Shown: one piece after another, positions 34,716-50,888 of the stretch | Numbering within the stretch: the first letter of the stretch is position 1 | How the letters are laid out: each line of letters begins with the position of its first letter | Assembly (NCBI RefSeq): GCF_000337675.1 | Contig: NZ_AOIB01000028.1 | Span: 210,140-274,139, forward strand | DNA from: Natronococcus amylolyticus DSM 10524 | GTDB taxonomy: Archaea; Halobacteriota; Halobacteria; Halobacteriales; Natrialbaceae | DNA length: 64,000 nucleotides | Direction of reading: 5' to 3' | Notes under the pieces: generated by a model | Database searches by the model: none | Told to the model about the DNA's origin: nothing | What the model saw: the letters and a program-made list of their open reading frames with translations, nothing else | Translations under genes and position numbers: made by a program

Positions 34716-36908
34716 TTACTCAGCGCCCGCCGACTCGGCGGTCGAACGAACTAGCGCCGGTGAGAGAGAGGATAGCGGGACACGTTCGCCGCCGGCCTCG
34801 TCGACGACGAGCTCCGAGAGTCCGGCATGGGGATCGTTACCGGCGTCGACGACGACGAGCTTCGCTCTAGCACTCCCGAGCTTCCGGGCTGCCTCCCGTG
34901 TCGCGTCCGTCGGGCTTCCGTCGGCGACGTTCGCCCTGCCGTCGGTGACGAGGACGACGACAGCAGCCTCCGACGTCGAGCGCTCGACGACCGACCGGGC
35001 GGTCTCGAGACCGGCGGGCAACGGCGTTCGGTCACCCGACGGCAGCTCCTTGAGATGGCGCGCGGCGAGGGAGACGCTGTCGGTCGGCGGAAGCAGTACG
35101 TCGGCGTCGTCGCCCGCGAACGCGACGAACGCGACCTCGTCGCGGTGCTGGTAGCTGTCCCGCAACAGCTCGAGGACGACGCCCTTGGCGGTTCGCATCG
35201 CGGGTCGCATCGATGCGCTCGCGTCGACGGCGAAGACGATCGTCGTCGACGTATTCCCGGCTCGCACGGATCGGCGGAGATCCTCCGTCTCGACGTCCGA
35301 CGCACCACGGGCCGCAGCGGACCGGACCGACGCCGCGGCGTCGATCGGGCCGTCGTCCGACGCGGATTCGGTCCTGACGCGGGCCCCCCGGTTCTCTGTG
35401 TCCGGCGTAACTGTCGTTCGGCTCCCTCCCGTACGGCCACGGCGGTCGGCCGTGACCTCGTCCGTCTCGAGTGCCGGCGCGCTCGCGTCGCCGACCTCAG
35501 CCCGACGGCCGGGAGCGAGCGGTCGAGCGTCGTCCCCATCCTCGTTCGATTCGGTATCGGTACCGTCGTCGTTCGATTCTGTACGATCCTCGGTCTCACC
35601 GTCCGATCCCTCGCGATCGCCCGCGGTCGCTCGTCCCGCCTCGGTCGAAGCCGAACGGTCGTCCTCGTCCGGTCGCCGTCCGCGCTCCGTTCCGTCGCGC
35701 TCGTCGTCGTTCGTGCCGTTCGAGCAATCCGAGCTACCGTCGGCCTCATCAGACTCGTCGTGGTCGCGGTCATGGCCCTCGTCGGCGTCGGGTTCGTCCT
35801 CGCGGGCGTCCTCGGATTCGGGTTCGCCCTCGTCGTCCCCGTCGCCCTCGTCGCTTCCATCCGTCTCGTCGGACGACTCCTCGTCGAACCAGTCCTCGAG
35901 AAGGTCCTTGAGCTCCGGTTCGTCCTCGAACGGCGTGCTCCGGAGGCGATGCGGGAGCGCGTAGCTGGCCGCCTCGCGGACGTCCGACTCGATCACGGTC
36001 GTCCGCCCTTCGAGGGCGGCCAGCGTCCTCGCGGTCCTGGCGGTCGCGATGTCGCCGCGGTGGCCGTCGACGCCGGCCTCGAGGCAGAGTTCGGCGATCT
36101 CGGTCTTGAACTCGTCGGGAAGCTCGACGCGGGACAGGCGGTCGCGCGCGCCGGCTACCGTCTCGCCGAGTCGATCGACGGCGTCGGCGTACGCCTCGGC
36201 TTGATCCGGATCGTCGCCGCGTTCGATCGTTCGGTCGATGATCTCGACCCGATCCGCGACGTCCCGGCAGCCCTCGACGGTCGCCTGGAGGGCGAACCGG
36301 TCCCGAAGCTGCGGGCGCAGGTCGCCCTCCTCGGGGTTCATCGTCCCGATCAGCGTGATGTTCGCGGGATGAGCGACGCTGATCCCGTCTCGCTCGACGG
36401 TGTTGACGCCGCTGGCTGCCGCGTCGAGGACGACGTCGACGAGGTGGTCCTCGAGCAGGTTGACCTCGTCGACGTAGAGGATGCCGCGGTTCGCGCGGGC
36501 CAACAGTCCGGGGTCGAACTCGGCCTCGCCTGCCAGGGCGTCCTCGACCGAGAGCGTTCCCACGATCCGGTCGCGGGTCGCTCCGAGCGGGAGCGTGACC
36601 AGCGGAACGGGTCGCGTCTCGACGGGCAGCTCGTCGGAATCGCGCTTTCGACAGCTCGCACACTGCAGCGTCGGGTCGTCGGGTGCGCAGCCGTACCGGC
36701 AGTCCGCGACGGCGCGCTGTTCGGGGAGGAGATCGGCGAGTCCTCGGACGGCGGTCGACTTCGCCGTCCCCTTCTCGCCGACGATCAACGCGCCGTCGAG
36801 TGTGTCGTTCGCAGCGATCGTCAACAGCGCGCGCTTGAGCTCCGACTGGCCGACGATCGCCGGAAACGGGGTCGACGACAGCTTTTTGCCCCCGGCGTTT
36901 ACAACCAT
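34716..36908 (-). CDS. cobaltochelatase AAA+/VWA subunit (ChlI-ChlD fusion)
   Basis: 730 residues. The N-terminal AAA+ domain (about 1-310) has Walker A GEKGTAKSTAVRGL, a Cys-rich insert (CRYGCAPDDPTLQCASCRK), Walker B ILYVDEVNLLEDHLVDVVLD and sensor region LIGTMNPEEGDLRPQLRDRF. A very acidic linker of about 170 residues follows. The C-terminal VWA domain (about 545-730) has the MIDAS motif IVFAVDASASMRP. It corresponds to BchI plus BchD (CobS plus CobT function) in one chain. It should power CobN, encoded divergently 34 bp away, in ATP-dependent cobalt insertion. Haloarchaea make no chlorophyll, which argues against magnesium chelation. Confidence 0.9.
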   Translation of the reverse strand: MVVNAGGKKLSSTPFPAIVGQSELKRALLTIAANDTLDGALIVGEKGTAKSTAVRGLADLLPEQRAVADCRYGCAPDDPTLQCASCRKRDSDELPVETRPVPLVTLPLGATRDRIVGTLSVEDALAGEAEFDPGLLARANRGILYVDEVNLLEDHLVDVVLDAAASGVNTVERDGISVAHPANITLIGTMNPEEGDLRPQLRDRFALQATVEGCRDVADRVEIIDRTIERGDDPDQAEAYADAVDRLGETVAGARDRLSRVELPDEFKTEIAELCLEAGVDGHRGDIATARTARTLAALEGRTTVIESDVREAASYALPHRLRSTPFEDEPELKDLLEDWFDEESSDETDGSDEGDGDDEGEPESEDAREDEPDADEGHDRDHDESDEADGSSDCSNGTNDDERDGTERGRRPDEDDRSASTEAGRATAGDREGSDGETEDRTESNDDGTDTESNEDGDDARPLAPGRRAEVGDASAPALETDEVTADRRGRTGGSRTTVTPDTENRGARVRTESASDDGPIDAAASVRSAAARGASDVETEDLRRSVRAGNTSTTIVFAVDASASMRPAMRTAKGVVLELLRDSYQHRDEVAFVAFAGDDADVLLPPTDSVSLAARHLKELPSGDRTPLPAGLETARSVVERSTSEAAVVVLVTDGRANVADGSPTDATREAARKLGSARAKLVVVDAGNDPHAGLSELVVDEAGGERVPLSSLSPALVRSTAESAGAE

Positions 36909-36942
36909 AGTTGCGCTAATACAATAGAGGTTTAAAAATTCG
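36909..36942. promoter_or_regulatory. 34-bp divergent leaderless promoter of chlID and cobN
   Basis: The two start codons face apart with only 34 bp between them. For the plus strand AATACAAT lies about 22 nt upstream of the cobN ATG; for the minus strand TTTTTAAACC lies about 22 nt upstream of the chlID ATG. Both spacings leave no room for leaders, and no Shine-Dalgarno site is present. The two TATA elements nearly abut, so the two transcription complexes may compete or be co-regulated. Confidence 0.6.
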
Positions 36943-39900
36943 ATGGCACGAATCGGGATCTACACGGCGACGGAGAACGAGCTTGGATCGATCGGACGCG
37001 CAGCGAAGCGCCTCGAGGACGTCGAACTGGTCGTTCGCTCGGAGAGCGACCTCGATGACGAGGCCGCGATCGAGGCGTTCGTCGAGGAATTGCGCGGCGC
37101 CGACGCAGCGATCTTCTGGCTACACGGCGCCGAGGACAGCATGCCGGGCTACGAGTACGCGACGGGCACACTCGAGGAGGCGAGCGTTCCGCTGATCGTC
37201 AAGGCGACCGGGGACGCCTTCGCCCTCGAGGATACGACAGTCGGCGCCGAGCACCGCGAGCGGGTCTGCGAGTACCTCGAGCGGGGCGGAACGATCAACG
37301 TCGAGAACTGCTGTCGGTTTCTCGCGAGCGAGTACGGCGACCGCGACCTCGCGTACGAGGAGCCGACCGAACTCCCCACGGAGGGTGTCTACCACCCCGA
37401 CTATCCGGGCGTGGGGTACGAGGAACTGCTCGAGACCCACGATCCGGGAAAGCCGACCGTGGCGGTCTGGTTCTACGAATCGCACTGGACCCACGAGAAC
37501 ACCCGCTACGTCGACGCGCAGGTCCGGGCGCTCGAGGAACAGGGGGCGAACGCCTTGCCGATCTTCTGCAACCCGGCGACGGATACGGACGAGCAGGAGG
37601 ACGCGGAGTGGGTGACCGACGAGTGGCTGCTGGACGACGCGAACGAACCCGTCGTCGACTCCGTCCTCTCCTCGTTTATGTTCTCGCTGTCGATGGACGA
37701 GCGCGGCCGCAGTGCAAACGACGAGGGCTCGAGCGCCGAGGACGTCTTCCTCGACCGACTCGGCGTCCCCGTCCTGCAGACCGTGACGACGATGCGCTCC
37801 CGGTCGCGCTACGAGGGCAGCGACACGGGCGTGATGGGGTTCGAACTCGCGCTTTCGGTCGCCTTACCGGAGTTCGACGGGAACGTGATCACCCACCCGA
37901 TCTCGGGGAAAGAACGCACCGACGACGAGGCCGGGATCGGGTCGGCCCCGGAACACCACTTCCCCATCGAGGATCGGATCGACCACGCGACGCGGCTGGC
38001 GGTCAACTGGGCCGAACTCCGGCACACGCCCAACGAGGAGAAACGGATCGCCGTCGTGCTGCACAACTACCCGCCGAGCGACGACGGGATCGGTACGGCG
38101 TTCGGACTCGACAGTCCCGAATCGACGGTGAACCTGCTCGAGGAGCTCGATGCTCGAGGGTACGACCTGGACGGTAAGTTGCCCGAGGACGGGCAGACAC
38201 TGGTTGAGAAACTGACCTCGCAACTGACGCTCGAGGACCGCTGGGTCGCCCCTGAGGACGTCCGCGAGCTCTCGGTCGACGTGGTCTCGACCGACCAGTA
38301 CGGCGAGTGGTTCGCCGACGCCGACGAGCGCTTTCGGGAGCACGTCCTCGAGGAGTGGGGCGAGGTTCCCGACCGTCCGTTCGCGATTCCGGGCGTCGAG
38401 TTCGGAAACGTGCTGGTGACGGTCCAGCCCCCGCGCGGATTCGGGATGGATCCCTCGAAGGTGTACCACGACTCCGACCTGCAGCCGCCCCACGACTACT
38501 ACGCGTTCTACGGCTGGCTGCGCAACGAGTTCGGCGCGGACGGCGTCGTTCACCTGGGCACCCACGGCAGCCTCGAGTGGCTCCCCGGCAAGACGGTCGG
38601 GCTCAACGGGGAGAGCGCGCCCGACCAGCTGATCGACGACCTGCCGAACGTCTACCCCTACATCGTCAACAACCCCGGTGAGGGCACGCAAGCGAAGCGA
38701 CGGTCGTACGCCGCGATCGTCGACTACCTCACGCCCGTCATGCGGGCCGCCGGAACGTACGACGAGCTGGCCGAGCTCGAGGAGCTCGCGAACCAGTACC
38801 GCGAGGCCGGGATGGAAGACGCCCGCGCCGACAGCGGCGAGCACCTCGAGGCGCTGATCCGGGAGAAAGTCGACGAGCTGGATCTCGCGGTCGAACTGGG
38901 TATTTCGGGTGAAATCACCGAGAAGGCCGACGTTCGCGGTCCCGAGGAAACCGGCACGACCCTGGCCGAGGGCGACATCACGGGCGACGAACTCGAGATC
39001 GACGAGCTCGTCGAGCGAGTCCACGAGTACCTCACGGACGTGAAGTCGACCCAGATCCGGCTGGGGCTCCATACCATGTCCGAGCCGCCGACCGACGACC
39101 GCCTCGTGGAGTATCTCGTCGCACTTACTCGACTCGAGAACCCCGGCGCGCCGAGCCTCCGGGAGAGCGTCGCCGGCGTCCTCGGGGTGGACTACGAGCG
39201 GATGCTGAACGCGCCCGGCGAGTACGACGAGGCCCTCGGAATGACTTACGCCGAGGCCGCCGACGAGGTGCGGGCGACGAGCCTCGAGCTGGTCGAGACG
39301 CTGGCCGAGCACGGGTTCGACGTTCCCGACTCGGAACGCGATGCTGGCCCCGAGGATGAGGTGAACATGAACCTGCTCGTCGTCGACCTCGAGACGATCG
39401 GCGACGCCCGCGCGACCTCGAGGGCTCACGACGATCTGCGGGAGGTGCTGGCGTACATCTGCGAGGAGGCCCAGCCGCGCGTCCAGGGGGCCGAGGACGA
39501 GGTCCCCCGGACCGCCGACGCCCTCTCGGGCGAGTACGTCCCGCCGGGCGGCTCCGGCGCGCCGACTCGCGGCGGCGTCGACCTGCTGCCGACGGCGCGG
39601 AACTTCTACACGCTGGATCCCCGGAAGGTGCCCGCCAGGCCCGCCTGGCAGGTCGGCAGCGAGGTCGCCGAGGGTGTCCTCGAGCGCCACTACGACGAGA
39701 ACGGCGAGTACCCCGAGGAGATCGGCGTCGTCGCCTGGGGGACCCCCACCGTTCGCACCCGCGGCGAGACGATCGCCCAGGTGCTCGCGATGATGGGCGT
39801 CGAGCCACAGTGGACCGACGCCGGCCGGATCGACGACGTCGAACCGATCCCCCTCGAGGAGCTCGACAGACCGCGGATCGACGTGACGACGCGGGTCTCG

Positions 39901-40839
39901 GGTCTGTTCCGGGACGCGTTCCCCGCCGCAGCGGGAGTGATCCACGATGCCGTCGACGCCGTGGTCGATCTCGAGGAACCCCACGAGATGAACTACGTCA
40001 AGAAGCACATCGAGGAGGAGGCCGAGGAGCTCGAGCAGGAAGCAGGGCTCGAGGAATCCGAGGCCCGCGAAGCCGCCACACACCGCGTCTTCACCACGAA
40101 ACCCGGCGGCTACGGCGCCGGGACGAACAAGGCCGTCGACGAGGGCAACTGGGACGACCGATCCGACCTCGCCGATGTCTACGTCCAGTGGGGCGGCTAC
40201 GCCATGGGGTCGCGAGGACGCGTCTCGGACGCCCACGACGCCTTCGAGCGCCGGCTCTCGAGCGTCGACGCGACCGTGAAGATCGAAGACACGATGGAGC
40301 AAGACGAGTTCGACTCCTCGGACTGGTACGCCTTCCACGGCGGCTTCATCTCGGCGGTGAGCGAGATCGCGGGCGAGGAGCCCGCCTCCTACGTCGGGGA
40401 CTCCTCGGATCCCGACAACGTCTCCGTCTACACCAACGAGGAGAAGGTCCGCAAGGCGATGCGCTCGCGGGTGCTCAACCCCGACTGGCTCGAGTCGATG
40501 GAGGACCACGGCTACAAGGGCGCTGGCGACCTCTCGACGACCGTCGACGTGACACTGGGCTGGGACGCCACCACGGGGGTCGTCAGCGACACCCTCTGGA
40601 ACGAGGTCGCCGAGAAGTTCGCCTTCGACGAGGATCGCCAGGAATGGATGCGCGACGTCAACCCGTGGGCCCTCGAGTCGATCACCGACACGCTGCTCGA
40701 GGCGATCGATCGCGACCTCTGGGACGCCGACGCGGAGACCGTCGACCGCCTGCGCGACCTGAATCTCGAAGTCGAGGGCGACCTCGAGGCCCGGACGACC
40801 AACGAGGTCGTCGGTGCGGGGGTGACGAACGATGACTGA
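36943..40839 (+). CDS. cobN: cobaltochelatase large subunit CobN
   Basis: 1298 residues, full length for CobN/BchH. Recognisable parts are the N-terminus MARIGIYTATENELGSIGRAA, EHHFPIEDRIDHATRLAVNW, the family block HLGTHGSLEWLPGKTVGLNG with YPYIVNNPGEGTQAKRR, TARNFYTLDPRKVPARPAW and the C-terminal KPGGYGAGTNKAVDEGNWDD...WGGYAMGS. It binds the tetrapyrrole and the metal; chelation needs the ATPase encoded divergently. In the aerobic pathway it acts late, on hydrogenobyrinate a,c-diamide. The same cluster also encodes CbiX, an early chelatase. Its stop overlaps the cbiC start by 8 nt. Confidence 0.95.
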   Translation: MARIGIYTATENELGSIGRAAKRLEDVELVVRSESDLDDEAAIEAFVEELRGADAAIFWLHGAEDSMPGYEYATGTLEEASVPLIVKATGDAFALEDTTVGAEHRERVCEYLERGGTINVENCCRFLASEYGDRDLAYEEPTELPTEGVYHPDYPGVGYEELLETHDPGKPTVAVWFYESHWTHENTRYVDAQVRALEEQGANALPIFCNPATDTDEQEDAEWVTDEWLLDDANEPVVDSVLSSFMFSLSMDERGRSANDEGSSAEDVFLDRLGVPVLQTVTTMRSRSRYEGSDTGVMGFELALSVALPEFDGNVITHPISGKERTDDEAGIGSAPEHHFPIEDRIDHATRLAVNWAELRHTPNEEKRIAVVLHNYPPSDDGIGTAFGLDSPESTVNLLEELDARGYDLDGKLPEDGQTLVEKLTSQLTLEDRWVAPEDVRELSVDVVSTDQYGEWFADADERFREHVLEEWGEVPDRPFAIPGVEFGNVLVTVQPPRGFGMDPSKVYHDSDLQPPHDYYAFYGWLRNEFGADGVVHLGTHGSLEWLPGKTVGLNGESAPDQLIDDLPNVYPYIVNNPGEGTQAKRRSYAAIVDYLTPVMRAAGTYDELAELEELANQYREAGMEDARADSGEHLEALIREKVDELDLAVELGISGEITEKADVRGPEETGTTLAEGDITGDELEIDELVERVHEYLTDVKSTQIRLGLHTMSEPPTDDRLVEYLVALTRLENPGAPSLRESVAGVLGVDYERMLNAPGEYDEALGMTYAEAADEVRATSLELVETLAEHGFDVPDSERDAGPEDEVNMNLLVVDLETIGDARATSRAHDDLREVLAYICEEAQPRVQGAEDEVPRTADALSGEYVPPGGSGAPTRGGVDLLPTARNFYTLDPRKVPARPAWQVGSEVAEGVLERHYDENGEYPEEIGVVAWGTPTVRTRGETIAQVLAMMGVEPQWTDAGRIDDVEPIPLEELDRPRIDVTTRVSGLFRDAFPAAAGVIHDAVDAVVDLEEPHEMNYVKKHIEEEAEELEQEAGLEESEAREAATHRVFTTKPGGYGAGTNKAVDEGNWDDRSDLADVYVQWGGYAMGSRGRVSDAHDAFERRLSSVDATVKIEDTMEQDEFDSSDWYAFHGGFISAVSEIAGEEPASYVGDSSDPDNVSVYTNEEKVRKAMRSRVLNPDWLESMEDHGYKGAGDLSTTVDVTLGWDATTGVVSDTLWNEVAEKFAFDEDRQEWMRDVNPWALESITDTLLEAIDRDLWDADAETVDRLRDLNLEVEGDLEARTTNEVVGAGVTNDD

Positions 40840-41575
40840 GGGCGAGTACGACGAGGAGTACGCCGATCTCGGGGCGACGACGGAGAACGCCATGGAGATC
40901 GCCGAGACGAGCATGGACATCGTCAGGCAGTTCGTCCCCGACGAGACGCTCGCCGATCGGGTTCGACAGAAGTCGGTCCACTCGATGGGCGACATCGAGT
41001 TCCAACACCTACTCGAGTTCACTGGCGGCGACGAACTCGGCGACGACGAGGACGCCCCCGTCCGTGCCGGCGCTCGCGCCGTCCTCGAGGAGGCGACGAT
41101 CGTCACGGACATCACGATGGCCAAAGCCGGCGTCACGGGTCGGGGTCACGACTGCGAGACCCGCAAGGCGATCGGCAACGGGGCCGAGCTCGCGAAGGAG
41201 ACGGGTATGACCCGGACCGCCGCCTCCGTGCTCGAGTTCGACAAGCGGGGCGTCTACGACGATTCGATCGCCGTGGTCGGCAACGCACCGACGGCGGCGT
41301 TCGCGCTCGCGGACTGCATCGAGAACGGCACCCGCCCGGCCGCGATCGTTGCGACGCCGGTCGGCTTCGTGAAGGCCGAAGAGAGCCGCCAGCGCGTTCG
41401 CGAGGTCAGCGAGGAGCACGGCGTTCCGGCGATCACCAACGTCGGTCGCCGCGGCGGGAGCGGCCTGGCGGCCGCGCTGACGAACGAGCTGATCCACGTC
41501 GCGAGCGACGTTCGAACGGGCGAGCTCGAGCTGGATCGGACGGCATCCGATCGGGCGACCCGGAGGGACGAATGA
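40832..41575 (+). CDS. cbiC: cobalt-precorrin-8 methylmutase CbiC
   Basis: 247 residues. The precorrin-8X methylmutase fold is clear: SVHSMGDIEFQHLLEF (with the catalytic His region), VRAGARAVLEEATIVTDITMAKAGV, DSIAVVGNAPTAAFALADCIENG and AIVATPVGFVKAEESRQRV...GVPAITNVGRRGGSGLAAALTNEL. The enzyme moves a methyl group from C-11 to C-12 to make cobyrinate. An acidic extension of about 30 residues precedes the core. It overlaps cobN by 8 nt and cbiE by 4 nt, so all three are translationally coupled. Confidence 0.95.
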   Translation: MTEGEYDEEYADLGATTENAMEIAETSMDIVRQFVPDETLADRVRQKSVHSMGDIEFQHLLEFTGGDELGDDEDAPVRAGARAVLEEATIVTDITMAKAGVTGRGHDCETRKAIGNGAELAKETGMTRTAASVLEFDKRGVYDDSIAVVGNAPTAAFALADCIENGTRPAAIVATPVGFVKAEESRQRVREVSEEHGVPAITNVGRRGGSGLAAALTNELIHVASDVRTGELELDRTASDRATRRDE

Positions 41576-42411
41576 GCGGCGAGTACGACCTCGATTCGGG
41601 TCCTGACCCGGCAACGTTCGCGGCCGGGAGCGCGGAGCCCGACGTCGACGAGTCGACCGACGACCCCGTCTACGTCGTCGGCGTCGGGCCCGGGAACCAA
41701 GAGTTCCTCACGCCCCGCGGCGAGCGTGCGATCCGGGAGGCCGACGTCGTCGTCGGCTTCACCACCGTCGTCGAGTTCGTCGAGGAGCTGACCGACGCCG
41801 ACCTGCTGACCTGCGGCTACAAGGACGAGGCCGCAGCTCTCGAGACGTTCGGCGAACGCGTCGCTACCGGCGAGTCCGGAACTGCCGTGGCGATGGGCGA
41901 CCCCAACCACTCGGGCTACCAGTTCGTCGGGAAGGTCCAGAACGCCGTCGAGCAGAGCTCGACGAGCCCCGACTCGCACACTCGTCGGGATGCCGCGGAC
42001 CGAGCGATCTCCGAGCGTCCGATCCGGATCGTCCCCGGCATCTCCTCGCTGCAGGTGGCCGCGAGCCGCGCCCGAATCCCGATGGAGGACGCCGAGTTCG
42101 TCACGCTCCACAAGAGCGGCGACCTCGAGGACGACGTCGACCGACTCGCGAGGGCCGTCGTCGAGGAGGACCGTCACCTGCTCGCGCTCCCGCGACCGTA
42201 CGATCGGATGCCCGGCGACCTCGCTGCATTGTTGCTCGAGCGCGGCGCCGACCCCGAACTCGAGGCGCTGGTCTGTGAGAAGCTCACCCACGAGGACGAG
42301 CGGATTCACCGGTTCACGCTGGCCGACCTGTCGGCACACGCGGGCGGCGACGACCGGGAGGACACACCGTTCTCGGATCTGGTGGTGCTCGCGGTGCGAC
42401 AACCCGTGTAG
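41572..42411 (+). CDS. cbiE: cobalt-precorrin-7 C5-methyltransferase CbiE
   Basis: 279 residues. After an acidic N-terminal extension (about 1-34) comes the tetrapyrrole methylase fold: VYVVGVGPGNQEFLTPRG, READVVVGFTTVVEF, VAMGDPNHSGYQFVGKVQNAV, IRIVPGISSLQVAASRARIPMEDAEFVTLHKSG and LALPRPYDRMPGDLAALL. CbiE methylates C-5 using S-adenosylmethionine. In many bacteria CbiE and CbiT are fused as CobL; here they are separate, with cbiT 163 nt downstream. Confidence 0.92.
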   Translation: MSGEYDLDSGPDPATFAAGSAEPDVDESTDDPVYVVGVGPGNQEFLTPRGERAIREADVVVGFTTVVEFVEELTDADLLTCGYKDEAAALETFGERVATGESGTAVAMGDPNHSGYQFVGKVQNAVEQSSTSPDSHTRRDAADRAISERPIRIVPGISSLQVAASRARIPMEDAEFVTLHKSGDLEDDVDRLARAVVEEDRHLLALPRPYDRMPGDLAALLLERGADPELEALVCEKLTHEDERIHRFTLADLSAHAGGDDREDTPFSDLVVLAVRQPV

Positions 42412-42574
42412 GGGTTGGTCGTTTTGCTTCCCGACTTCGAAGATCGCTCTCTACCCTCTTCGGCCAATCCAGTAGCACAACGAATGTTTCGCTATTGAAA
42501 CTCAGAATGCGCAATAGAATTTGATCTAAACCAACCACAATTGTTTTAGTGGAGGCACCAGTCATCCACGGGTA
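42412..42574 (+). promoter_or_regulatory. 163-nt A/T-rich region before cbiT, probable internal promoter
   Basis: This is one of only two sizeable gaps in the cobalamin gene string. The A/T-rich part (about 42480-42550) contains AATAGAATTTGATC and CAATTGTTTTAG, the latter about 25 nt upstream of ATG 42575. It looks like a separate promoter for the cbiT-cbiL-cbiF part. I see no cobalamin-riboswitch B12-box pattern. Confidence 0.4.
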
Positions 42575-43186
42575 ATGGCACCGATTGCGCTGCCACACGA
42601 CGCGAAGGCCGGGCCGACGAAGGCCGAAGTTCGGGCCGTTACCCTCTCGAAGCTCGCGCTCGAGGCGGACGACCACTTCGTCGAGGTCGGCTCCTGTACG
42701 GGCGCCGTCACGATCGAAGCCGCGCGACGGGCGGGGCGCGTAACCGCCCTCGAGCGGAAGGCCGAACGGCTCGAGACGACCGAGAAGAACCTCGCGGCGA
42801 ACGCCGACTCGTTGCGGGCCGACGTCGAACTCCGAAACGCGGAGGCCCCCGGGGGGCTACCCGAGGACGCCGACGCGCTCTTTCTCGGCGGGAGCCGCAA
42901 CTTCGAGGCCGTGCTCGACCACGCCGCAGAGACGGGCGTCGATCGCGTCGTGATGAACGTCTCGCGCCTCGAGGTCGCCGGTCGGGCGACCGAGGCGTTC
43001 CGCGAGCGGGACCTCCTCGAGGAGGTCGTCCAGTTCCAGGTGAGTCACGGCTACGAGCTCGCCGGGGCGACGAGCTTCGACTCGGAGAATCCGGTGTACA
43101 TGCTGGTCGGCAGCGCGACCGACAACGACGCGGGCGGGGACGACGGAAAGCGAGTCGCCGCCGACGGTGGGGGATCGCAGCGATGA
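42575..43186 (+). CDS. cbiT: cobalt-precorrin-6B C15-methyltransferase (decarboxylating) CbiT
   Basis: 203 residues with a class I Rossmann methyltransferase fold: LPHDAKAGPTKAEVRAVTLSKL (typical CbiT entry), SAM motif DDHFVEVGSCTGAVTIEAA, VTALERKAERLETTEKNLAAN and ALFLGGSRNFEAVLDHAA. It methylates C-15 and removes the acetate side chain at C-12. The C-terminal 20 residues are a Gly/Asp-rich tail. It overlaps cbiL by 4 nt. Confidence 0.93.
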   Translation: MAPIALPHDAKAGPTKAEVRAVTLSKLALEADDHFVEVGSCTGAVTIEAARRAGRVTALERKAERLETTEKNLAANADSLRADVELRNAEAPGGLPEDADALFLGGSRNFEAVLDHAAETGVDRVVMNVSRLEVAGRATEAFRERDLLEEVVQFQVSHGYELAGATSFDSENPVYMLVGSATDNDAGGDDGKRVAADGGGSQR

Positions 43187-44121
43187 CCCTCTACGGCGTC
43201 GGGCTCGGCCCCGGCGAGGCCGACCTCGTGACGGTCCGAGGAAAACGGATTCTCGAGGACGCGGACGTGGTCTACTCGCCGGGCCGACTCTCGCGGACCG
43301 TTGCCCTCGAGCACGTCCCAGAGGAACGGATCGGCGACCTCGAGTTTCCGATGACGAGAGACGAGGAGAAGCTTCGGGCGGCCTGGAAGGAGGCCGCCGC
43401 GGAGATCGCGCCCAACGCTCGCGAGGGCGACGTCGCCTTCGTCACGCTCGGCGATCCGAACGTCTACTCGACGTTCGGTCACCTGCGGCGAACGATCGAC
43501 GCCTTCCACCCCGACGTCGACCTCGAGATCGTCCCCGGCGTGAGCGCGGTGACGGCCTTCGCGACCGCGCTGGGCGTCGAGATCGAGGCCGGCGCAGGGC
43601 TCTCGCTCCGGGAGGCGGCCAGCGGGGCGAGCCCCACGGGACCGGATCGGATGATCCTGTTCAAGGTCACCGACGCGCCGGCGACCCACGCGGGGCTCGT
43701 CGAGGCGGGCTACGAGGTGACCTACGGCCGCCGGCTGTTCATGGAGCAGGGTGAGACCCTCGTGACCGACGACCCCGCCGAGATCGACGAACGGGACTAC
43801 TACACGCTGGCCTACGCCGAGAAGGCGGATCTCGAGATCGAGCAGGCGACGGCAGCCTTCCGAACCGACGGAACGGACGCTCGCTCGAGCGACGGTGGCA
43901 CCGAGCCCGACGCCGAGCCGTCGGGCGACGAGTCGATCGCGGATGGCGGCAGCGAGTCGACCGTCGCGGGGCGATCGTCGGCGAACGGACCGTCGTCCGG
44001 ACGCGAACGAGGTGTCGAGTTTCGTTCCCTTCCGGAGGATTCGGACGTCGACGGCACGCTCGTCGACCTCGAGCGCGCCGAGGGCTGTGAACACGGCGAC
44101 TGTAGCGAGCACTGGTACTGA
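43183..44121 (+). CDS. cbiL: cobalt-factor II C20-methyltransferase CbiL with metal-binding C-terminal tail
   Basis: 312 residues. Tetrapyrrole methylase core (about 1-225): MTLYGVGLGPGEADLVTVRG, VVYSPGRLSRTVAL, VTLGDPNVYSTFGHLRRTID, EIVPGVSAVTAFATALGV and FKVTDAPATHAGLVEAGYEV. The first dedicated C-20 methylation is its likely job. Beyond the usual end the chain continues with a Ser/Gly/Asp-rich linker (about 230-285) and finishes in CEHGDCSEHWY (residues 302-312). That tail offers two Cys and two His in nine residues, a plausible metal site. Its ATG overlaps cbiT by 4 nt, and its TGA shares one base with the cbiF ATG. Confidence 0.93.
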   Translation: MTLYGVGLGPGEADLVTVRGKRILEDADVVYSPGRLSRTVALEHVPEERIGDLEFPMTRDEEKLRAAWKEAAAEIAPNAREGDVAFVTLGDPNVYSTFGHLRRTIDAFHPDVDLEIVPGVSAVTAFATALGVEIEAGAGLSLREAASGASPTGPDRMILFKVTDAPATHAGLVEAGYEVTYGRRLFMEQGETLVTDDPAEIDERDYYTLAYAEKADLEIEQATAAFRTDGTDARSSDGGTEPDAEPSGDESIADGGSESTVAGRSSANGPSSGRERGVEFRSLPEDSDVDGTLVDLERAEGCEHGDCSEHWY

Positions 44122-45056
44122 TGGGTGAGACGACCGAGACGGACGACAACGAAGCCACAGACGACGGCGACCCCCAGAGCGCGATCGACGCGCAGGGGGA
44201 CCGTCGCCGAGAGGAACTGGACGACCGAGTCTTCGACCACAGCGCGGGCGACGAACAGGCGGGGATTCCATTCGTCGGGGCCGGTCCCGGCGATCCGCGG
44301 CTGTTGACGGTGGCCGGAAGGGAGCTGCTCGAGGAGAGCGACCTCGTGGTCCACGCCGGTTCGCTGGTCAACAGCGAACTGCTCGAGGCGTACTGCGACC
44401 ACGCGGAACTCGTCAATTCCGTGGGGAAGGACCTCGAGGAGTTGATCCCGCTGATGCGGGACGCCTACGAAGAGGGCCGGAACGTGGTCCGCCTGCACAG
44501 CGGCGATCCCGCCATCTACGGGGCGGCGCTCGAGCAGATGGACGCCCTCGAGCACGAGGGCGTGCCGACCTACTTCGTCCCCGGCGTCACCTCGGCGTTC
44601 GCTGCGAGTGCGACCCTGCGGACGCAGCTGACACTCAACGAGGTCGCGAACCACGTCGCGTTCACCCGCCCCCAGGGTAAAACCCTGAGCGCCGAGGAGG
44701 ACCACATCTCCGATTTCGTCGAGATGGGCGACGTGACGACCTGCATCTACCTCGGGACTCACGCCGTTCGGGACACGATGGATCGGCTGCTCGAGGACGG
44801 CCACGACCCCGAGACGCCGGTCGGCGTGATCTACCACGCCTCCTGGCCGGACGAGGACGTGATCGTCGGCTCGATCGGCGATATCGCTGACAGGATCGAG
44901 GAAGCCGGGTATCGAGCGTCTGCGCTGGTCGTCATCGGCGACGCCGTCACCGGCGCGGGCTACGAGCGCTCGTATCTCTACGGCGACTGGGCTAATCGGG
45001 GTTCTTCAGGAAGCTCGGCCGAAAACACGAGCGAGCCGGAGGCGAGCGATGACTGA
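44121..45056 (+). CDS. cbiF: cobalt-precorrin-4 C11-methyltransferase CbiF
   Basis: 311 residues. After an acidic N-terminal extension (about 1-48) the methylase core reads IPFVGAGPGDPRLLTVAGRELLEESDLVVHAGSLVN, VVRLHSGDPAIYGAALEQMDAL, YFVPGVTSAFAASATLRTQLTLNEVANHVAFTRPQG and CIYLGTHAVRDTMDRLLEDG, which is the CobM/CbiF branch. It adds the C-11 methyl group. A Ser/Glu-rich tail closes it. The stop lies 222 nt before cbiG, a break in an otherwise overlapping gene string, filled by the repeat element at 45085. Confidence 0.94.
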   Translation: MGETTETDDNEATDDGDPQSAIDAQGDRRREELDDRVFDHSAGDEQAGIPFVGAGPGDPRLLTVAGRELLEESDLVVHAGSLVNSELLEAYCDHAELVNSVGKDLEELIPLMRDAYEEGRNVVRLHSGDPAIYGAALEQMDALEHEGVPTYFVPGVTSAFAASATLRTQLTLNEVANHVAFTRPQGKTLSAEEDHISDFVEMGDVTTCIYLGTHAVRDTMDRLLEDGHDPETPVGVIYHASWPDEDVIVGSIGDIADRIEEAGYRASALVVIGDAVTGAGYERSYLYGDWANRGSSGSSAENTSEPEASDD

Positions 45057-45282
45057 GGAGAGTCGGGTGCGGTACCGCGAACACAATGAAAGCCCCCAGC
45101 CCCGTCGACTCGGGGGCCTCGCTGTGCTCCTCGGTCGTTCGCGACGCTCCCTCCCTGCGGTGCTTGCGTCGCCCGCCTTCGCCGACGGGGCTGGCCCCTT
45201 TCAGTCCCACCCCAGCGGTGGACAGGACGGGTCGATTCGGCGTGGAACGGGCGAGTTCGGTACGACGGAGGTTCGACAATGA
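45049..45282 (+). CDS. 77-residue open frame bridging cbiF and cbiG, doubtful gene
   Basis: The frame starts ATGACTGAG, overlapping the cbiF stop by 8 nt, and ends with a TGA inside the cbiG ATGA. This is exactly how real genes in this operon join. But most of the product (about 12-62; Arg/Ser/Pro/Leu-rich, with RSRRSLPAVLASPAFADG) is translated from the structured repeat element and is not haloarchaeal in composition. Either a small gene was interrupted in frame by the element, or the frame merely lets ribosomes pass so that cbiG stays coupled. I doubt a folded product. Confidence 0.3.
   Translation: MTEESRVRYREHNESPQPRRLGGLAVLLGRSRRSLPAVLASPAFADGAGPFQSHPSGGQDGSIRRGTGEFGTTEVRQ
45085..45231. 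repeat. nested inverted-repeat element between cbiF and cbiG
   Basis: An outer stem TGAAAG (45087-45092) pairs with CTTTCA (45198-45203). After a symmetric CCC/CCC internal loop, CCAGCCCCGTCG (45096-45107) pairs perfectly with CGACGGGGCTGG (45183-45194). Inside lies a second hairpin, GCGACGC (45141-45147) with GCGTCGC (45166-45172). A competing local hairpin CCCCG-TCGACT-CGGGG lies at 45100-45115. I recall similar sequences (reverse strand ending in GGGGCTTTCATT) scattered through haloarchaeal genomes, so it is probably a dispersed, possibly mobile, RNA-structured repeat. Confidence 0.6.
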
Positions 45283-46274
45283 GTTCAGGAACTGAGAACG
45301 CGGACGGGACGGACGACTCGAGTACAGACTCCGGTAGCCACTGTTCGACGCCGGATTCGGACGGCGAGGTGGCCGAGGAGATCGCGATCGTCTCTTTCGA
45401 GCGCAAGATGGAGACCGCCGAGAAGATCCGGGCTGAACTCGAGGAGCGCTACGAGTCGATCGAGATCCTCGAGTACCACGGCGACGTCTTCGCCGAGCAC
45501 TGGGGCGAGTACGACTGCTTCGTCGGCCTGATGGCCTCCGGTATCGCGATGCGGAAGACCGCGGGCCTGCTCGACGACAAGTGGGAGGACCCCGCGATCT
45601 GCGTCGTCGACGAGGAGCTGACGTGGGCGATCCCGATCACGGGCGGCCACCACGGCGCCAACCAGGTCGCCCAGGATCTGGCGACGATGGGCGCCGTGCC
45701 GGCGATGACCACTGCCAGCGAGGCGGCGGGCAAGCAGGGCGTCGAGTCGAGGGCCAAGGCGATGGACGCCCACGTCGTCAACGGCGACTCGACGGTCAAG
45801 ACGAACCTCGCTGTGCTCGACGACGAGCTGGGTCCTGTCGAGCGACTCGAGGGTCCCCGGGCCGTCCTCGTCGGCGACGACGTTACCGTTCTCAAGCGCA
45901 ACAAGCAGGACGGAATCGTCATCGGTACCGGCAGCGTCTCCGGTGCGAGCGCGGAGTCGTTCCTCGCCGCCTGGGAGGAGGCCCTCGAGGAGACCGAGTA
46001 CGACCTCGCCGACGTCGAGTTCGTCGCCACCGCGACCCGGAAGGCCGAGGAGGAGGGGCTGCTCGAGGCCGCCCGGGAGCTCGATCTGGGTGTTGTGGTC
46101 TTCGACAAGGAAACGCTGCTCGAACACGAGGGGCCGACACCCTCGAAGTCCAAGGAGCTGATCGGTTGGCCGGGTGTCTCCGAGGCCAGCGCGATCGCGG
46201 GCGGTGCCGAGCAGGAACTGGTACTCGAGAAGCTAGGGTATGAAAACGAGGTCACGGTGGCGATCGGCCGATGA
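45279..46274 (+). CDS. cbiG: cobalt-precorrin-5A hydrolase CbiG
   Basis: 331 residues. An acidic N-terminus (about 1-30), then the CbiG N-terminal domain (IAIVSFERKMETAEKIRAEL, FVGLMASGIAMRKTAGLLDDKW, VVDEELTWAIPITGGHHGANQVAQDLA), a central domain and the CbiG C-terminal domain (GTGSVSGASAESFLAAWEEALEE, FVATATRKAEEEGLLEAA, GWPGVSEASAIAGGAEQEL). It opens the delta-lactone of cobalt-precorrin-5A and releases acetaldehyde, a step specific to the early-cobalt (anaerobic) route. It overlaps the next gene by 4 nt. Confidence 0.94.
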   Translation: MSSGTENADGTDDSSTDSGSHCSTPDSDGEVAEEIAIVSFERKMETAEKIRAELEERYESIEILEYHGDVFAEHWGEYDCFVGLMASGIAMRKTAGLLDDKWEDPAICVVDEELTWAIPITGGHHGANQVAQDLATMGAVPAMTTASEAAGKQGVESRAKAMDAHVVNGDSTVKTNLAVLDDELGPVERLEGPRAVLVGDDVTVLKRNKQDGIVIGTGSVSGASAESFLAAWEEALEETEYDLADVEFVATATRKAEEEGLLEAARELDLGVVVFDKETLLEHEGPTPSKSKELIGWPGVSEASAIAGGAEQELVLEKLGYENEVTVAIGR

Positions 46275-47170
46275 GTTCGGACGCCGACCCCGCGGACCTC
46301 GACGGAGCCGACGCGAACGCGGCAGCTCCCGGAACTCCCGAGGACCACGGCACTCTCTCGGTGGTCGGGATCGGTCCCGGACTGCCCGAACACATGACCC
46401 TGAAGGCGAAACGGGTCATCGAGACCGCCGACGTCGTCATCGCCTCGAGCCTCTACCAGGAGTTTCTACGCGACGACGGGACGATCCCGTCCGAAGAGCG
46501 GACGAACGAGGACGGCATCGCTACTCGAGAGGACGGCTTCGAACAGGAGATCGTTCGCTCGACGATGGGCCGCCAGATCGAACTCGCCCGCGCGGCGTTC
46601 GACTACGTCCGCGAGGGGAAAGACGTCGCCCACGTCTCCGGCGGCGATCCATCGGTCTACGGCAAGTCCGATCTGATCTTCAAGATGGCCGACGAGGAGG
46701 ATGCGACGGACGTTCCGATCGAGATCGTCCCCGGCATGACGGCGGCACTGGGCGGTTCGGCCAACGTCGGCGCGCCGCTGTGCAACGACTTCTGTACCGT
46801 CTCGCTGTCGGACAAGTGGCGCGGCTGGGACGAGATCGAGGAGAAGCTGCGCGCGGCGGCGATCTCCGATTTCGTGATCGTGCTGTACAACTGCTGGCGC
46901 AACTACGAGAAGGCAGTCGAGATCGTCCGCGAGGAACGAACCGACGACGCCCGCGTGGCGATCGTCAATGACGCGGGTCGGGCCGACGCGGGTCGCAACG
47001 GCGAGAGCGAGTTCATCACCACCCTCGGCGAGGCTGCCGACCACGACGACAGGGTCTCGGGGATGGGTACCTCGCTGATCGTCGGCAATCACGAGACCGA
47101 AACCTGGAGCAACGACGACCGAACGTACCTCGTCACGCCCCGCGGCGGGCGCGACGTCGAGGATTTCTGA
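46271..47170 (+). CDS. cbiH: cobalt-precorrin-3 C17-methyltransferase CbiH (copy 1)
   Basis: 299 residues. After an acidic, Ala-rich extension (about 1-25) the methylase core reads LSVVGIGPGLPEHMTLKAKRVI, VIASSLYQEFL, DVAHVSGGDPSVYGKSDLIFKM, IEIVPGMTAALGGSANVGAPL, NDFCTVSLSDKWRGWDEIEEKLRAAAISDFVIVLYN and YLVTPRG. The C-T-V-S-L-S-D segment marks the C17-methyltransferase (ring-contracting) branch. A second member of the same branch follows after 9 nt. The two may do different steps. Here an insertion of about 25 residues between the first strands (SEERTNEDGIATREDG) differs from copy 2. Confidence 0.88.
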   Translation: MSSDADPADLDGADANAAAPGTPEDHGTLSVVGIGPGLPEHMTLKAKRVIETADVVIASSLYQEFLRDDGTIPSEERTNEDGIATREDGFEQEIVRSTMGRQIELARAAFDYVREGKDVAHVSGGDPSVYGKSDLIFKMADEEDATDVPIEIVPGMTAALGGSANVGAPLCNDFCTVSLSDKWRGWDEIEEKLRAAAISDFVIVLYNCWRNYEKAVEIVREERTDDARVAIVNDAGRADAGRNGESEFITTLGEAADHDDRVSGMGTSLIVGNHETETWSNDDRTYLVTPRGGRDVEDF

Positions 47171-47179
47171 CTTACAACT

Positions 47180-48142
47180 ATGAGCACGAATACTAACACT
47201 GACGACGAATCGACTTCCAACTGCGGTGCCTCCACGAACGAATCCGAGTCCTCGGGGTCGGCGTGCGGAGCCTCCTCGAGTGGCGACGACTCGAGTTCGA
47301 CGTGTGGTGCCTCGAGCGACGACTCCCACGAACAGGAGGTCGGCGCCACGGTCGCGGACTTCGACGCCGACCCGGGCCAGCTAACCGCTGTCGGGCTCGG
47401 CCCCGGCCACGCCGAAGGGATGACCGAACGGGCGAAGACGGCGCTGCTCGAGGCCGACCACATCGTCGGCTACACGACCTACATCGAACTCATTCCGGAC
47501 GAAATTACCGAGCAAGCCGACGAAATCTACGACACGCCGATGTGTGGCGAGGTGTCGCGCACGGAGGAGTCGATCGACCGCACCCTTGCCGGAAACGACG
47601 TTGCCATCGTCGGCAGCGGCGATCCAAACGTCTACGCGCTGGCCGGGCTGGCCCTGGAGATCCTCGAATCTAAGGGTGCAACGGCCTCGATGGTCGAGTT
47701 CGACGTCGTTCCGGGCGTTCCTGCGGCGCAGTCCTGTGCGGCTCGTCTGGGCGCGCCGCTGGTCAACGACACCGTCTCGGTGTCGCTGTCGGACCACCTC
47801 GTGCCGATGCCCGAAATCGAGTCCCGGCTGCACTCCGTGGCGAGCGAGAACTTCACGATCACGATCTACAACCCCTGGAGCCGCAAGCGCCGGGAGAACT
47901 TCCGGAAGTGCTGTGAGATTCTTACCACCCACCGGGACGAGGAGACGCCCGTCGGCATCGTCCACGGCGCTGGCCGCGAGGACGAGCAGGTGATGATCAC
48001 CGAACTCGGCGAGCTCGAGGAGCTCGGCGAGAGCGAGATTATCGACATGACGACGACAATCCTCGTCGGCACCGAGGACACCTACGTCTGGGACGATCGG
48101 ATGGTGACGCCGCGGGGCTACGAGACGAAATACGACTACTAA
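47180..48142 (+). CDS. cbiH: cobalt-precorrin-3 C17-methyltransferase CbiH (copy 2) with cysteine-repeat N-terminus
   Basis: 320 residues. The core (about 65-320) has LTAVGLGPGHAEGMTERAKTAL, IVGYTTYIELIP, DVAIVGSGDPNVYALAGLALEI, FDVVPGVPAAQSCAARLGAPLV, NDTVSVSLSDHLVPMPEIESRL and YNPWSRKRRENFRKC. It is closer to canonical CbiH than copy 1. The first 55 residues are a Ser/Asp/Glu-rich tail with three CGAS repeats (Cys 15, 29 and 42), which is unusual because haloarchaeal proteins are poor in Cys. A bacterial CbiH with an Fe-S extension is known (CbiH60), so a metal or Fe-S role is possible. Confidence 0.9.
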   Translation: MSTNTNTDDESTSNCGASTNESESSGSACGASSSGDDSSSTCGASSDDSHEQEVGATVADFDADPGQLTAVGLGPGHAEGMTERAKTALLEADHIVGYTTYIELIPDEITEQADEIYDTPMCGEVSRTEESIDRTLAGNDVAIVGSGDPNVYALAGLALEILESKGATASMVEFDVVPGVPAAQSCAARLGAPLVNDTVSVSLSDHLVPMPEIESRLHSVASENFTITIYNPWSRKRRENFRKCCEILTTHRDEETPVGIVHGAGREDEQVMITELGELEELGESEIIDMTTTILVGTEDTYVWDDRMVTPRGYETKYDY

Positions 48143-48157
48143 CTACGAGACAAACCA

Positions 48158-48424
48158 ATGCCACGCTACGAGATCACCATCGAGAAGGACGCCTGCGACG
48201 GCATCTTCGCCTGCCTGACGCGCGACCCGCGCTTCGTCGAGGGCGAGCGCGGCCTCGCGACGATCGATCCCGACGGGGATCCGATCTACGATTGCGAGGG
48301 CGACGTGACCGACACCGCCGAACGGGTTGTCGCGACGTTCGACGACGACCGCATGGACGAGGCGAAGCAGGCTGCTGCCGCCTGTCCGACCGACGCCATC
48401 GTCGTCAAGGAGGTGGACGGATGA
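48158..48424 (+). CDS. mono-cluster ferredoxin of the cobalamin operon
   Basis: 88 residues: MPRYEITIEKDACDGIFACL (Cys 13 and Cys 19), a middle segment with YDCEGD, and KQAAAACPTDAIVVKEVDG. The pattern C-x5-C ... CPTDAI resembles single-cluster [3Fe-4S]/[4Fe-4S] ferredoxins; a conventional fourth ligand is replaced, or supplied by the middle Cys. It should pass electrons to an oxygen-sensitive step such as ring contraction, reduction of cobalt, or the missing precorrin-6 reduction. It sits 15 nt after cbiH copy 2 and overlaps the next gene by 4 nt. Confidence 0.85.
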   Translation: MPRYEITIEKDACDGIFACLTRDPRFVEGERGLATIDPDGDPIYDCEGDVTDTAERVVATFDDDRMDEAKQAAAACPTDAIVVKEVDG

Positions 48425-49161
48425 GCGAGTCCGCGACTCCCGACGATACGGACCCCCTCGAGATCGAGGTCCCCGCGGATCCGCTGGCTGGCCATCCCGC
48501 GAGCGCGTACTTCTGGGGGCACGTCGCCGGGAGCGGTGACGTCGTTGATAGCGGTATCGAGGTCACCACCAACGACGAGCGCTCCGCACGGGTGCTCGCG
48601 GCCATTGCCGGCGGCGACCTCGAGCACGAGACGACGAGCCGCGAGTACGCCCACGACGCGTCGATCACCCGAACCGAGGACGAGTACACGCTCTCGATCG
48701 GGGACGACGAGGAAGAGAGCGGCGAGGGCCACGAGGACGGTACCAGGGGATTGCTCGGCCGCAGCAACGCGCTCGGGCTCCCCGTCGACGGCCGCGGGAA
48801 CTACCGCTTTGGGGCGTTCTCGAGCCACGACCGCGAGCTGCTTCGAGGACTGCTCGAGGGCTGCGGGACGATCTGTTTCAAGTCGAAGAGCGGTACCGTC
48901 GGGATCTCGTTCGTCCACGACGACCGCGACCTGCTCGAGTTGACCCGGGAGCTGATCACGGGGTGTCCGATCGAGGCGTCCGTCGACGACCTCTCGGAGA
49001 CTTCGTCGGGTGGCTACTGGTTCGGAATCGACGACGCCGACGCGCCCGCGTTCGGAACGTGGCTCTACGAGGACTGTGCGGAAACCGGACTCTACGCGCC
49101 GAGTCGTCGCCGCAAGCTCGAGCGGAGCCTCGAGCAGGCCGAGGCGTACGACGAGCCGTAA
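48421..49161 (+). CDS. conserved cobalamin-operon protein with degenerate LAGLIDADG fold
   Basis: 246 residues, ATG 48421 overlapping the ferredoxin stop by 4 nt. I read two LAGLIDADG-type repeats. The first motif, FWGHVAGSGDV (residues 31-41), is followed by IEVTTNDERSARVLAAIAGG. The second, LRGLLEGCGTI (142-151 with Leu 141), is followed by VGISFVHDDRDLLELTRELI, YWFGIDDADAPAFGTWLYEDC. The layout matches a single-chain homing-endonuclease or WhiA-like fold. The catalytic Asp position of each motif is Ser 38 and Cys 148, so nuclease activity should be absent. It could bind DNA, RNA or a corrin intermediate. Haloarchaeal homologues are known only as cobalamin-operon proteins of unknown function. 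Confidence 0.75.
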   Translation: MSESATPDDTDPLEIEVPADPLAGHPASAYFWGHVAGSGDVVDSGIEVTTNDERSARVLAAIAGGDLEHETTSREYAHDASITRTEDEYTLSIGDDEEESGEGHEDGTRGLLGRSNALGLPVDGRGNYRFGAFSSHDRELLRGLLEGCGTICFKSKSGTVGISFVHDDRDLLELTRELITGCPIEASVDDLSETSSGGYWFGIDDADAPAFGTWLYEDCAETGLYAPSRRRKLERSLEQAEAYDEP

Positions 49162-49220: not shown

Positions 49221-50447
49221 ATGAGTACGCCAGACGACACCGCGCCTGCGGCGGCGTTCGACGACGAGGCGGTTTTGCTGGTCGGTCACGGCTCCCGCCG
49301 GGAGAAGTCGAACCAGCAAGTACGGGAGCTGGCCGCCGACCTCGAGTCGCGGCTGGGGATCCCGGTCGACGTCGCGTTCCTCGAGCTCGCGGCGCCGGCG
49401 ATCGACGAGGCGTTCGCGGAGCTCGCGACGCTCGTGTCGCGGGTGACGGTCGTCCACTGCTCGCTGTTCGCGGCGAGTCACGTCAAAAACGACGTGCCGC
49501 TGGCGATCGAGCGAGCGCGGGCAGCACACGACCTCGAGATCGACAACGGGGCGCACCTGGGCATCCATCCGGCGATACTCGACCTGCTCGACGACCGGGC
49601 TCGCGCGGTCGAGGCCGAGCTGGGCGTTGACCGGACGACGGACGACGTCGCCGTCGTCCTCTGCGGGCGGGGCTCGAGCGACCCCGATGCGAACGGCGAC
49701 GTCCACAAGCTCGCCCGGCTGCTGTACGAGGGGCGGGCGTTCGACCACGCCGAAGCGACGTTCGTCGGCGTCACCGAGCCCACGCTCGAGGACACGCTCC
49801 ACGGGCTCTCGAAGCACCGTCCCGACGCGGTCGTCGTTCTCCCGTACATGCTCGGCGACGGCGTCCTCACCCAGCGCGTTCGAGACTGGACGAGCGAGTT
49901 CGACGACCAGTACCCGTACGTCGACGCGCTCGCGGGCGATCCCCTCGGGACGGACTCCCGGTTGCTCGACGTCCTCGCCGACCGCTGGCAAGAGGGGCGC
50001 ACCGACAGTGTCGAAATGTCCTGTGACACGTGCAAGTACAAGGTCGATCTCGAGGGCTACGAGGAGGACGTCGGCGGCGCGCGGGCCATGCTGCGCGCGC
50101 TGGCCCACCAGGAGGCACACGCCGATCGGGACGACGTCGACGACGAGCCCCACAGCCATGACGCGCCGGAAAAACACGTCACGGTCTGTACAAACCGGAC
50201 CTGTGCCGACATGGGGTCGTCCGCGGTGCTCGAACGCATTCGTCAGGAGGCCCGCGACGCCGAGCACTGTGACGTTCGCATCACCCGCTCGTCGTGTCTG
50301 GGTCGCTGTGGCGACGGGCCGATGGTCGCGGTCTACCCCGACGGGATCTGGTATGGCGACGTCGCGGCCGAGGACGCCGATCGGATCGTTTCCGACCATC
50401 TGGAACGAGGGCGTCTCGTCAGCGATCTCGTCGATCAGACCCTGTAG
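49221..50447 (+). CDS. cbiX: sirohydrochlorin cobaltochelatase CbiX with C-terminal ferredoxin domain
   Basis: 408 residues from ATG 49221 (MSTPDDTAPAAAFDDEAVLL); the frame is open upstream but overlaps the preceding gene. Two CbiX/CbiK-type halves (about 15-130: VLLVGHGSRREKSNQQVREL, IPVDVAFLELAAPAIDEAF; about 140-260: VVLCGRGSSDPDANGDVHKL, DAVVVLPYMLGDGVLTQRV) insert Co into sirohydrochlorin. A CDTC motif (about 268) and a His-rich stretch (about 288-316) follow. A thioredoxin-like [2Fe-2S] domain (about 318-395) closes it, with VCTNRTCADMGS, CLGRCGDGPMVAVYPDGIWYG. It is the early cobalt-insertion enzyme, 59 nt after the LAGLIDADG-like gene. Confidence 0.93.
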   Translation: MSTPDDTAPAAAFDDEAVLLVGHGSRREKSNQQVRELAADLESRLGIPVDVAFLELAAPAIDEAFAELATLVSRVTVVHCSLFAASHVKNDVPLAIERARAAHDLEIDNGAHLGIHPAILDLLDDRARAVEAELGVDRTTDDVAVVLCGRGSSDPDANGDVHKLARLLYEGRAFDHAEATFVGVTEPTLEDTLHGLSKHRPDAVVVLPYMLGDGVLTQRVRDWTSEFDDQYPYVDALAGDPLGTDSRLLDVLADRWQEGRTDSVEMSCDTCKYKVDLEGYEEDVGGARAMLRALAHQEAHADRDDVDDEPHSHDAPEKHVTVCTNRTCADMGSSAVLERIRQEARDAEHCDVRITRSSCLGRCGDGPMVAVYPDGIWYGDVAAEDADRIVSDHLERGRLVSDLVDQTL

Positions 50448-50516: not shown

Positions 50517-50888
50517 ATGAGCTGCTACGAAATCGAAGCGCTTCGACTCGGACTGATGACTGTCCTCGGCGTCGAGGACCAGCACGCCCGCGAGCACGCG
50601 GAGAAGGAACTCGAAGGCCACCTCGAGGGTCCTATCGAGGGACTCGCCGAAGCAGAGAGCCTCGCGGAGATCGAACGCCACCTCGACGCCGCGCTCGTCG
50701 ACCTCGAGGAGGCCGTCGCGTCGATGGACGCTGACGACCCGGAGTACGATTACACCCGGGGTCGGCTGCTGGCCGTCCGCGACGCCGAGCGCGCCGTTCG
50801 TCGGCTCCGAATCCAGGGCGAGAGCGTCGTCGACGGTCTCGGCGACGCACACGATCTGCTCCACGAGACCTTCCCAACCGAGGGCTGA
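50517..50888 (+). CDS. DUF3209 family protein
   Basis: 123 residues: MSCYEIEALRLGLMTVLGVE, EHAEKELEGHLEGPIEGLAE and a second half with DLEEAVASMDADDPEYDYTRGRLLAVRDAERAVRRL. It is entirely helical in appearance. The family repeatedly lies next to cbiX in haloarchaea, but its role is unknown; a chaperone or cobalt-handling accessory to CbiX is an inference. A Met-Ser-Cys start and scattered His residues are the only possible metal ligands. It is the last gene of the cobalamin block, 69 nt after cbiX. Confidence 0.85.
   Translation: MSCYEIEALRLGLMTVLGVEDQHAREHAEKELEGHLEGPIEGLAEAESLAEIERHLDAALVDLEEAVASMDADDPEYDYTRGRLLAVRDAERAVRRLRIQGESVVDGLGDAHDLLHETFPTEG

Follow-up and report, generated by a model that had tools for sequence, protein, structure and literature searches.

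A predicted LAGLIDADG-fold protein in the cobalamin operon of Halobacteria and its possible part in cobalt insertion

The cobalamin locus and its conserved upstream element

The window, the whole stretch of 64,000 nucleotides from Natronococcus amylolyticus DSM 10524 that was analysed, contains a cobalamin gene run in the order cbiT-cbiL-cbiF-cbiG-cbiH1-cbiH2-ferredoxin-LAG-cbiX-DUF3209. Its upstream portion, cbiT to cbiH2, lies at 42575..48142 on the plus strand. It is followed on the same strand by a small single-cluster ferredoxin gene (Fer4_15; 48158..48424), the gene for the 246-residue LAG (48421..49161), defined here by its ORF translation and predicted fold as a LAGLIDADG-fold cobalamin-operon protein of the HVO_B0055 type, the CbiX cobaltochelatase gene (49221..50447) and a gene for a DUF3209 protein (50517..50888). 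A second cobalamin gene block lies immediately upstream on mixed strands (34716..42411), with chlID on the minus and cobN, cbiC and cbiE on the plus strand. Annotation of Natronococcus occultus plasmid 2 gives an identical cobalamin gene order. The ATG of LAG and the stop codon of the ferredoxin gene share 4 nt, as described in an earlier note on this DNA, which had also correctly placed two LAGLIDADG-like motifs at residues 31-41 (FWGHVAGSGDV) and 141-151 (LRGLLEGCGTI). CbiX ends in a thioredoxin-like [2Fe-2S] domain (residues 316-392), which occupies the place of the His-rich tail found in clusters without LAG. Judged by locus-tag order, the protein should be the equivalent of HVO_B0055, which has been listed as 'function unassigned' (PMC8305020); a literature search found no assignment of HVO_B0055 to the LAGLIDADG fold.

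Upstream of cbiT, at 42531..42548 on the plus strand, is a conserved operator- or promoter-like element with the consensus ACAANCANAATTGTTTTA. A close copy with at most 4 mismatches was found in 111 of 111 regions upstream of cbiT, whereas shuffled sequence gave at least 6, and in all but one of these regions the element ends 22-26 nt before the ATG. It forms a near-invariant inverted repeat of the AACAA-N6-TTGTT type and resembles an operator over a leaderless promoter. A pattern search of the same genome located a weaker copy upstream of a beta-propeller gene adjoining cbiA (L182, near 5798). An RNA element in the window was also considered and was rejected for want of any Rfam match.

Predicted fold and remodelled active site

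The structure of LAG was predicted with AlphaFold2 from 55 relatives (pLDDT 82.2, pTM 0.82). The model contains the alpha-beta-beta-alpha-beta-beta-alpha repeat twice, with paired LAGLIDADG helices. Repeat 1 comprises a helix (residues 26-38), two strands (39-42 and 45-50), a helix (53-63) and two further strands (66-76 and 79-94); repeat 2 comprises a helix (130-148), two strands (149-154 and 159-166), a helix (169-180), a strand (199-203) and two helices (208-216 and 227-244). By the model and the family alignment, the first LAGLIDADG helix is encoded at 48496..48534 and the second at 48808..48864, both on the plus strand. When the model was compared with the PDB by Foldseek, the LAGLIDADG domain of WhiA ranked first (3hyj, E 2.4e-6), followed by I-DmoI and other LAGLIDADG proteins, and the significant matches were LAGLIDADG proteins. 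Alignment by VIA-align gave Z 14.5 with WhiA in its RNA-polymerase complex (184 residues, 3.1 Å), Z 13.7 with PI-PfuI and I-DmoI, and Z 12.6 with the LAGLIDADG maturase 2ab5.

At the sequence level, the protein of the window alone scored below the cut-off of Pfam PF14528 (LAGLIDADG_3), with E 0.14 and 12.9 bits against 22.5 bits, and 23 of 39 relatives matched this family, with a best E of 2.7e-5. An NCBIfam search returned no match, and a profile of the family against PDB sequences returned a single, meaningless one (tektin, E 0.16). Neither the protein nor its relatives matched CbiD (PF01888) or CbiJ (PF02571) in Pfam. No helix-turn-helix (HTH) was found either: the model stops at the last LAGLIDADG helix, and no HTH family was matched by the protein or its relatives. 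The assignment of LAG to the LAGLIDADG fold, as made on the predicted model, is well supported. It had been proposed in the earlier note and is upheld by the two repeats, the Foldseek matches and the VIA-align score of 14.5 over residues 12-244, the model agreeing with LAGLIDADG proteins and not with another fold. The comparison with WhiA, also suggested there, is supported as well, with WhiA being the nearest solved structure.

In the window, the positions of the two metal-binding acids are occupied by Ser38 and Cys148. Across 39 relatives, position 38 is Asp in 24, Ser in 5, Asn in 5, Gly in 3 and Ala in 2, and position 148 is Cys in 38 and Thr in 1. The claim that both catalytic acids are lost is therefore correct for this species, but it does not extend to the family, in which position 38 is most often Asp. 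Judged from the aligned sequences, the lost second acid is characteristic of the family and the first acid is often retained. In an active nuclease each LAGLIDADG helix ends with a metal-binding acid, an arrangement that LAG does not have; since position 148 is nearly always Cys, the family is without a two-acid nuclease site. His78, Arg142, Glu146, Cys152, Arg229, Arg230 and Lys232 are invariant in the family. Comparison of the gene with close relatives gave dN/dS values of 0.20-0.25, indicating purifying selection.

Distribution and clusters without the gene

Co-occurrence of LAG and CbiC was assessed in the same 292 genomes of Halobacteria. LAG is present in 145 and CbiC in 150; both occur together in 145, CbiC alone in 5 and LAG alone in none, so that 0 of the 142 genomes lacking CbiC have LAG. 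Its absence from the five CbiC-positive genomes was re-checked with the LAG family profile. The co-occurrence is strong, yet it is no count of independent events, because members of one operon are co-inherited and the genomes share ancestry. No LAG was found outside the order: a search of 345 genomes of the phylum yielded 32 matches, all within the same order, and the best 80 of 161 genome-contig LAG loci are all from Halobacteria. The gene order CbiH2-ferredoxin-LAG-CbiX is nearly invariant: of about 118 loci, essentially all keep it. One exception, G136 (L162), has LAG without an adjoining ferredoxin gene. In the other, G142 (L163), LAG is unlinked to the cobalamin cluster and adjoins a rhodanese gene, and the genome retains CbiX-[2Fe-2S] and DUF3209; this copy (L163 9826-10422) is short and diverged, with a rhodanese-like neighbour.

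No relatives of LAG were found on viral contigs, and a viral or mobile origin was accordingly rejected. The view of the earlier note that LAG is an operon member and not a parasite agrees with the fixed slot in about 118 loci, the purifying selection and the lack of an interrupted host gene. Some variation in length was observed. The LAG of Natronococcus pandeyae (L091 10001-10783) has an in-frame insertion of about 20 residues directly after the first LAGLIDADG motif, and split LAG matches in G087, G088, G067, G106 and G008 suggest similar insertions. Three LAGLIDADG_3 domains above the cut-off occur in long open frames elsewhere in the genome of the window (L174, L175, L176) and are probably inteins.

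A CbiX with a His-rich tail is found in all five CbiC-positive genomes without LAG (G080, G125, G129, G222, G324). In G125, G129, G222 and G324, CbiH2 is followed directly by CbiX, ferredoxin, LAG and DUF3209 all being absent from the cluster, and this CbiX bears the His-rich tail where other CbiX have the [2Fe-2S] domain. G080 does have ferredoxin, CbiX-[2Fe-2S] and DUF3209; here a second, His-tailed CbiX fills exactly the slot of LAG between ferredoxin and CbiX-[2Fe-2S], overlapping the end of the ferredoxin gene (L165 13434-16301). The idea that LAG and a His-tailed CbiX strictly exclude each other was rejected because L143 contains both, along with ferredoxin, while lacking DUF3209. In the CbiX tree, the [2Fe-2S]-tailed forms make up one group (92/96) that excludes the His-tailed ones; the inserted G080 copy lies beside the CbiX of L143 (91/76) in a tree with several long branches. 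According to the CbiG tree, four of the five clusters without LAG look like one early-branching cluster type, so about two independent events underlie the link between absence of LAG and a His-tailed CbiX; in the CbiH2 tree the same four clusters split.

Possible role and relation to known systems

Domestication of LAG is well supported. Its role is best read, with a probability of about 0.4, as that of a nuclease-dead LAGLIDADG accessory of CbiX in cobalt insertion during de novo B12 synthesis. A domesticated LAGLIDADG-fold protein without a nuclease site would thus serve inside the pathway, where it may assist the early cobalt-insertion step of the neighbouring CbiX by handling cobalt or the tetrapyrrole; its partners in this step would be the ferredoxin, the [2Fe-2S] tail of CbiX and DUF3209. 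The binding place may be the remodelled site, formed by Asp/Ser38, Cys148, Cys152, His78, Glu146, Arg142, Arg229, Arg230 and Lys232. Since position 38 varies, conservation of a metal site with two ligands is unproven. This role is preferred because His-tailed CbiX occurs in the genomes without LAG and because the His-rich tail of Bacillus megaterium CbiXL has been proposed to store and deliver metal (cobalt) (PMC7689651), observations that are suggestive and fall short of proof. G142, with its unlinked LAG beside retained CbiX-[2Fe-2S] and DUF3209, counts for the accessory reading, and L143, with LAG and His-tailed CbiX together, counts against it. More tentatively, a selfish endonuclease may have been domesticated once in Halobacteria, its divalent-metal cleft having been remodelled (Asp/Ser plus Cys) to bind cobalt or a tetrapyrrole and supply CbiX. 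If so, LAG would to our knowledge be the first protein of the LAGLIDADG fold to have a function not involving nucleic acids.

Other explanations are less probable. LAG may, in a WhiA-like use, bind DNA as an autoregulator of the cobalamin operon that senses cobalt or cobalamin; the best structural matches, WhiA and the DNA-binding homing endonucleases, the near-invariant operator-like element ahead of cbiT and the strict co-occurrence with the operon would all suit a dedicated regulator. Nevertheless, such a role is unlikely. Clusters without LAG retain the cbiT element with 2-4 mismatches, so LAG is not its dedicated binder, and LAG has no HTH, the part by which WhiA binds DNA site-specifically, the LAGLIDADG domain alone giving no footprint (PMC3781837). 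These points weaken the earlier suggestion of a cobalamin-responsive regulator acting at 42412-42574; a regulator LAG might act at a different site. LAG is also as acidic as the pathway enzymes (K+R 7.7%, D+E 21%), although in a halophile this is a weak argument. Rather less probable still is a role in organising the pathway enzymes, as a scaffold or as an RNA-binding protein, with no direct part in cobalt handling. The structural match to the maturase and the translational coupling to ferredoxin are consistent with it, but no Rfam family lies within the window and hence no RNA target, and the conserved Cys, His, Arg and Glu residues suggest a ligand site.

The pathway itself offers a further candidate role, in which LAG would be, or would help, the enzyme for CbiD methylation or CbiJ reduction. 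CbiD is absent from 282 of 282 sampled Halobacteria, and in the same 282 CbiJ gave nothing above the cut-off and one weak match, with positive controls in both searches. The published reconstruction has the same two gaps and offers four unassigned cluster genes, HVO_B0055 included, as candidates (PMC8305020). Still, this is improbable: the five CbiC-positive genomes without LAG also lack CbiD and CbiJ, so LAG alone does not explain the gap and the earlier idea that it covers a missing step loses ground, and CbiH1 is the published candidate for the methylation. Counting further against it, we know of no methyltransferase or reductase precedent in the LAGLIDADG fold. That LAG is a homing endonuclease still active, or recently so, is highly improbable in spite of its homology to such enzymes, given the Cys in place of the second acid in 38 of 39 members, the fixed and generally single-copy occurrence under purifying selection with no host gene interrupted, and the failure to find relatives on viral contigs.

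The role of LAG is directly testable in Haloferax volcanii. A predicted fold has now been given to one of the four genes without an assigned function in the cobalamin cluster of haloarchaea, where HVO_B0055 and its orthologues occupy the same slot as LAG, and the search for replacements of CbiD and CbiJ is narrowed, since these must occur in genomes without LAG. As for the proposed cobalt role, the His-rich tail of B. megaterium CbiXL may be a functional counterpart of LAG, the His-tailed CbiX of G080 replacing LAG in situ, but it is unrelated to LAG in sequence and fold. The archaeal homing endonucleases I-DmoI and PI-PfuI match LAG in fold over both halves; unlike them, LAG has its catalytic acids replaced, stands in no intron or intein context and is an obligate operon member. 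The N-terminal domain of WhiA (DUF199) is, like LAG, a two-repeat LAGLIDADG monomer whose active site is degenerate and which is maintained by vertical inheritance in a host function. WhiA, however, has a C-terminal DNA-binding HTH and belongs to Gram-positive bacteria, whereas LAG has no HTH, was found only in Halobacteria among the samples searched, and lies in a B12 operon. Beside WhiA, LAG would be a second LAGLIDADG protein domesticated long ago and throughout its hosts, in this case archaeal and placed in a metabolic operon.
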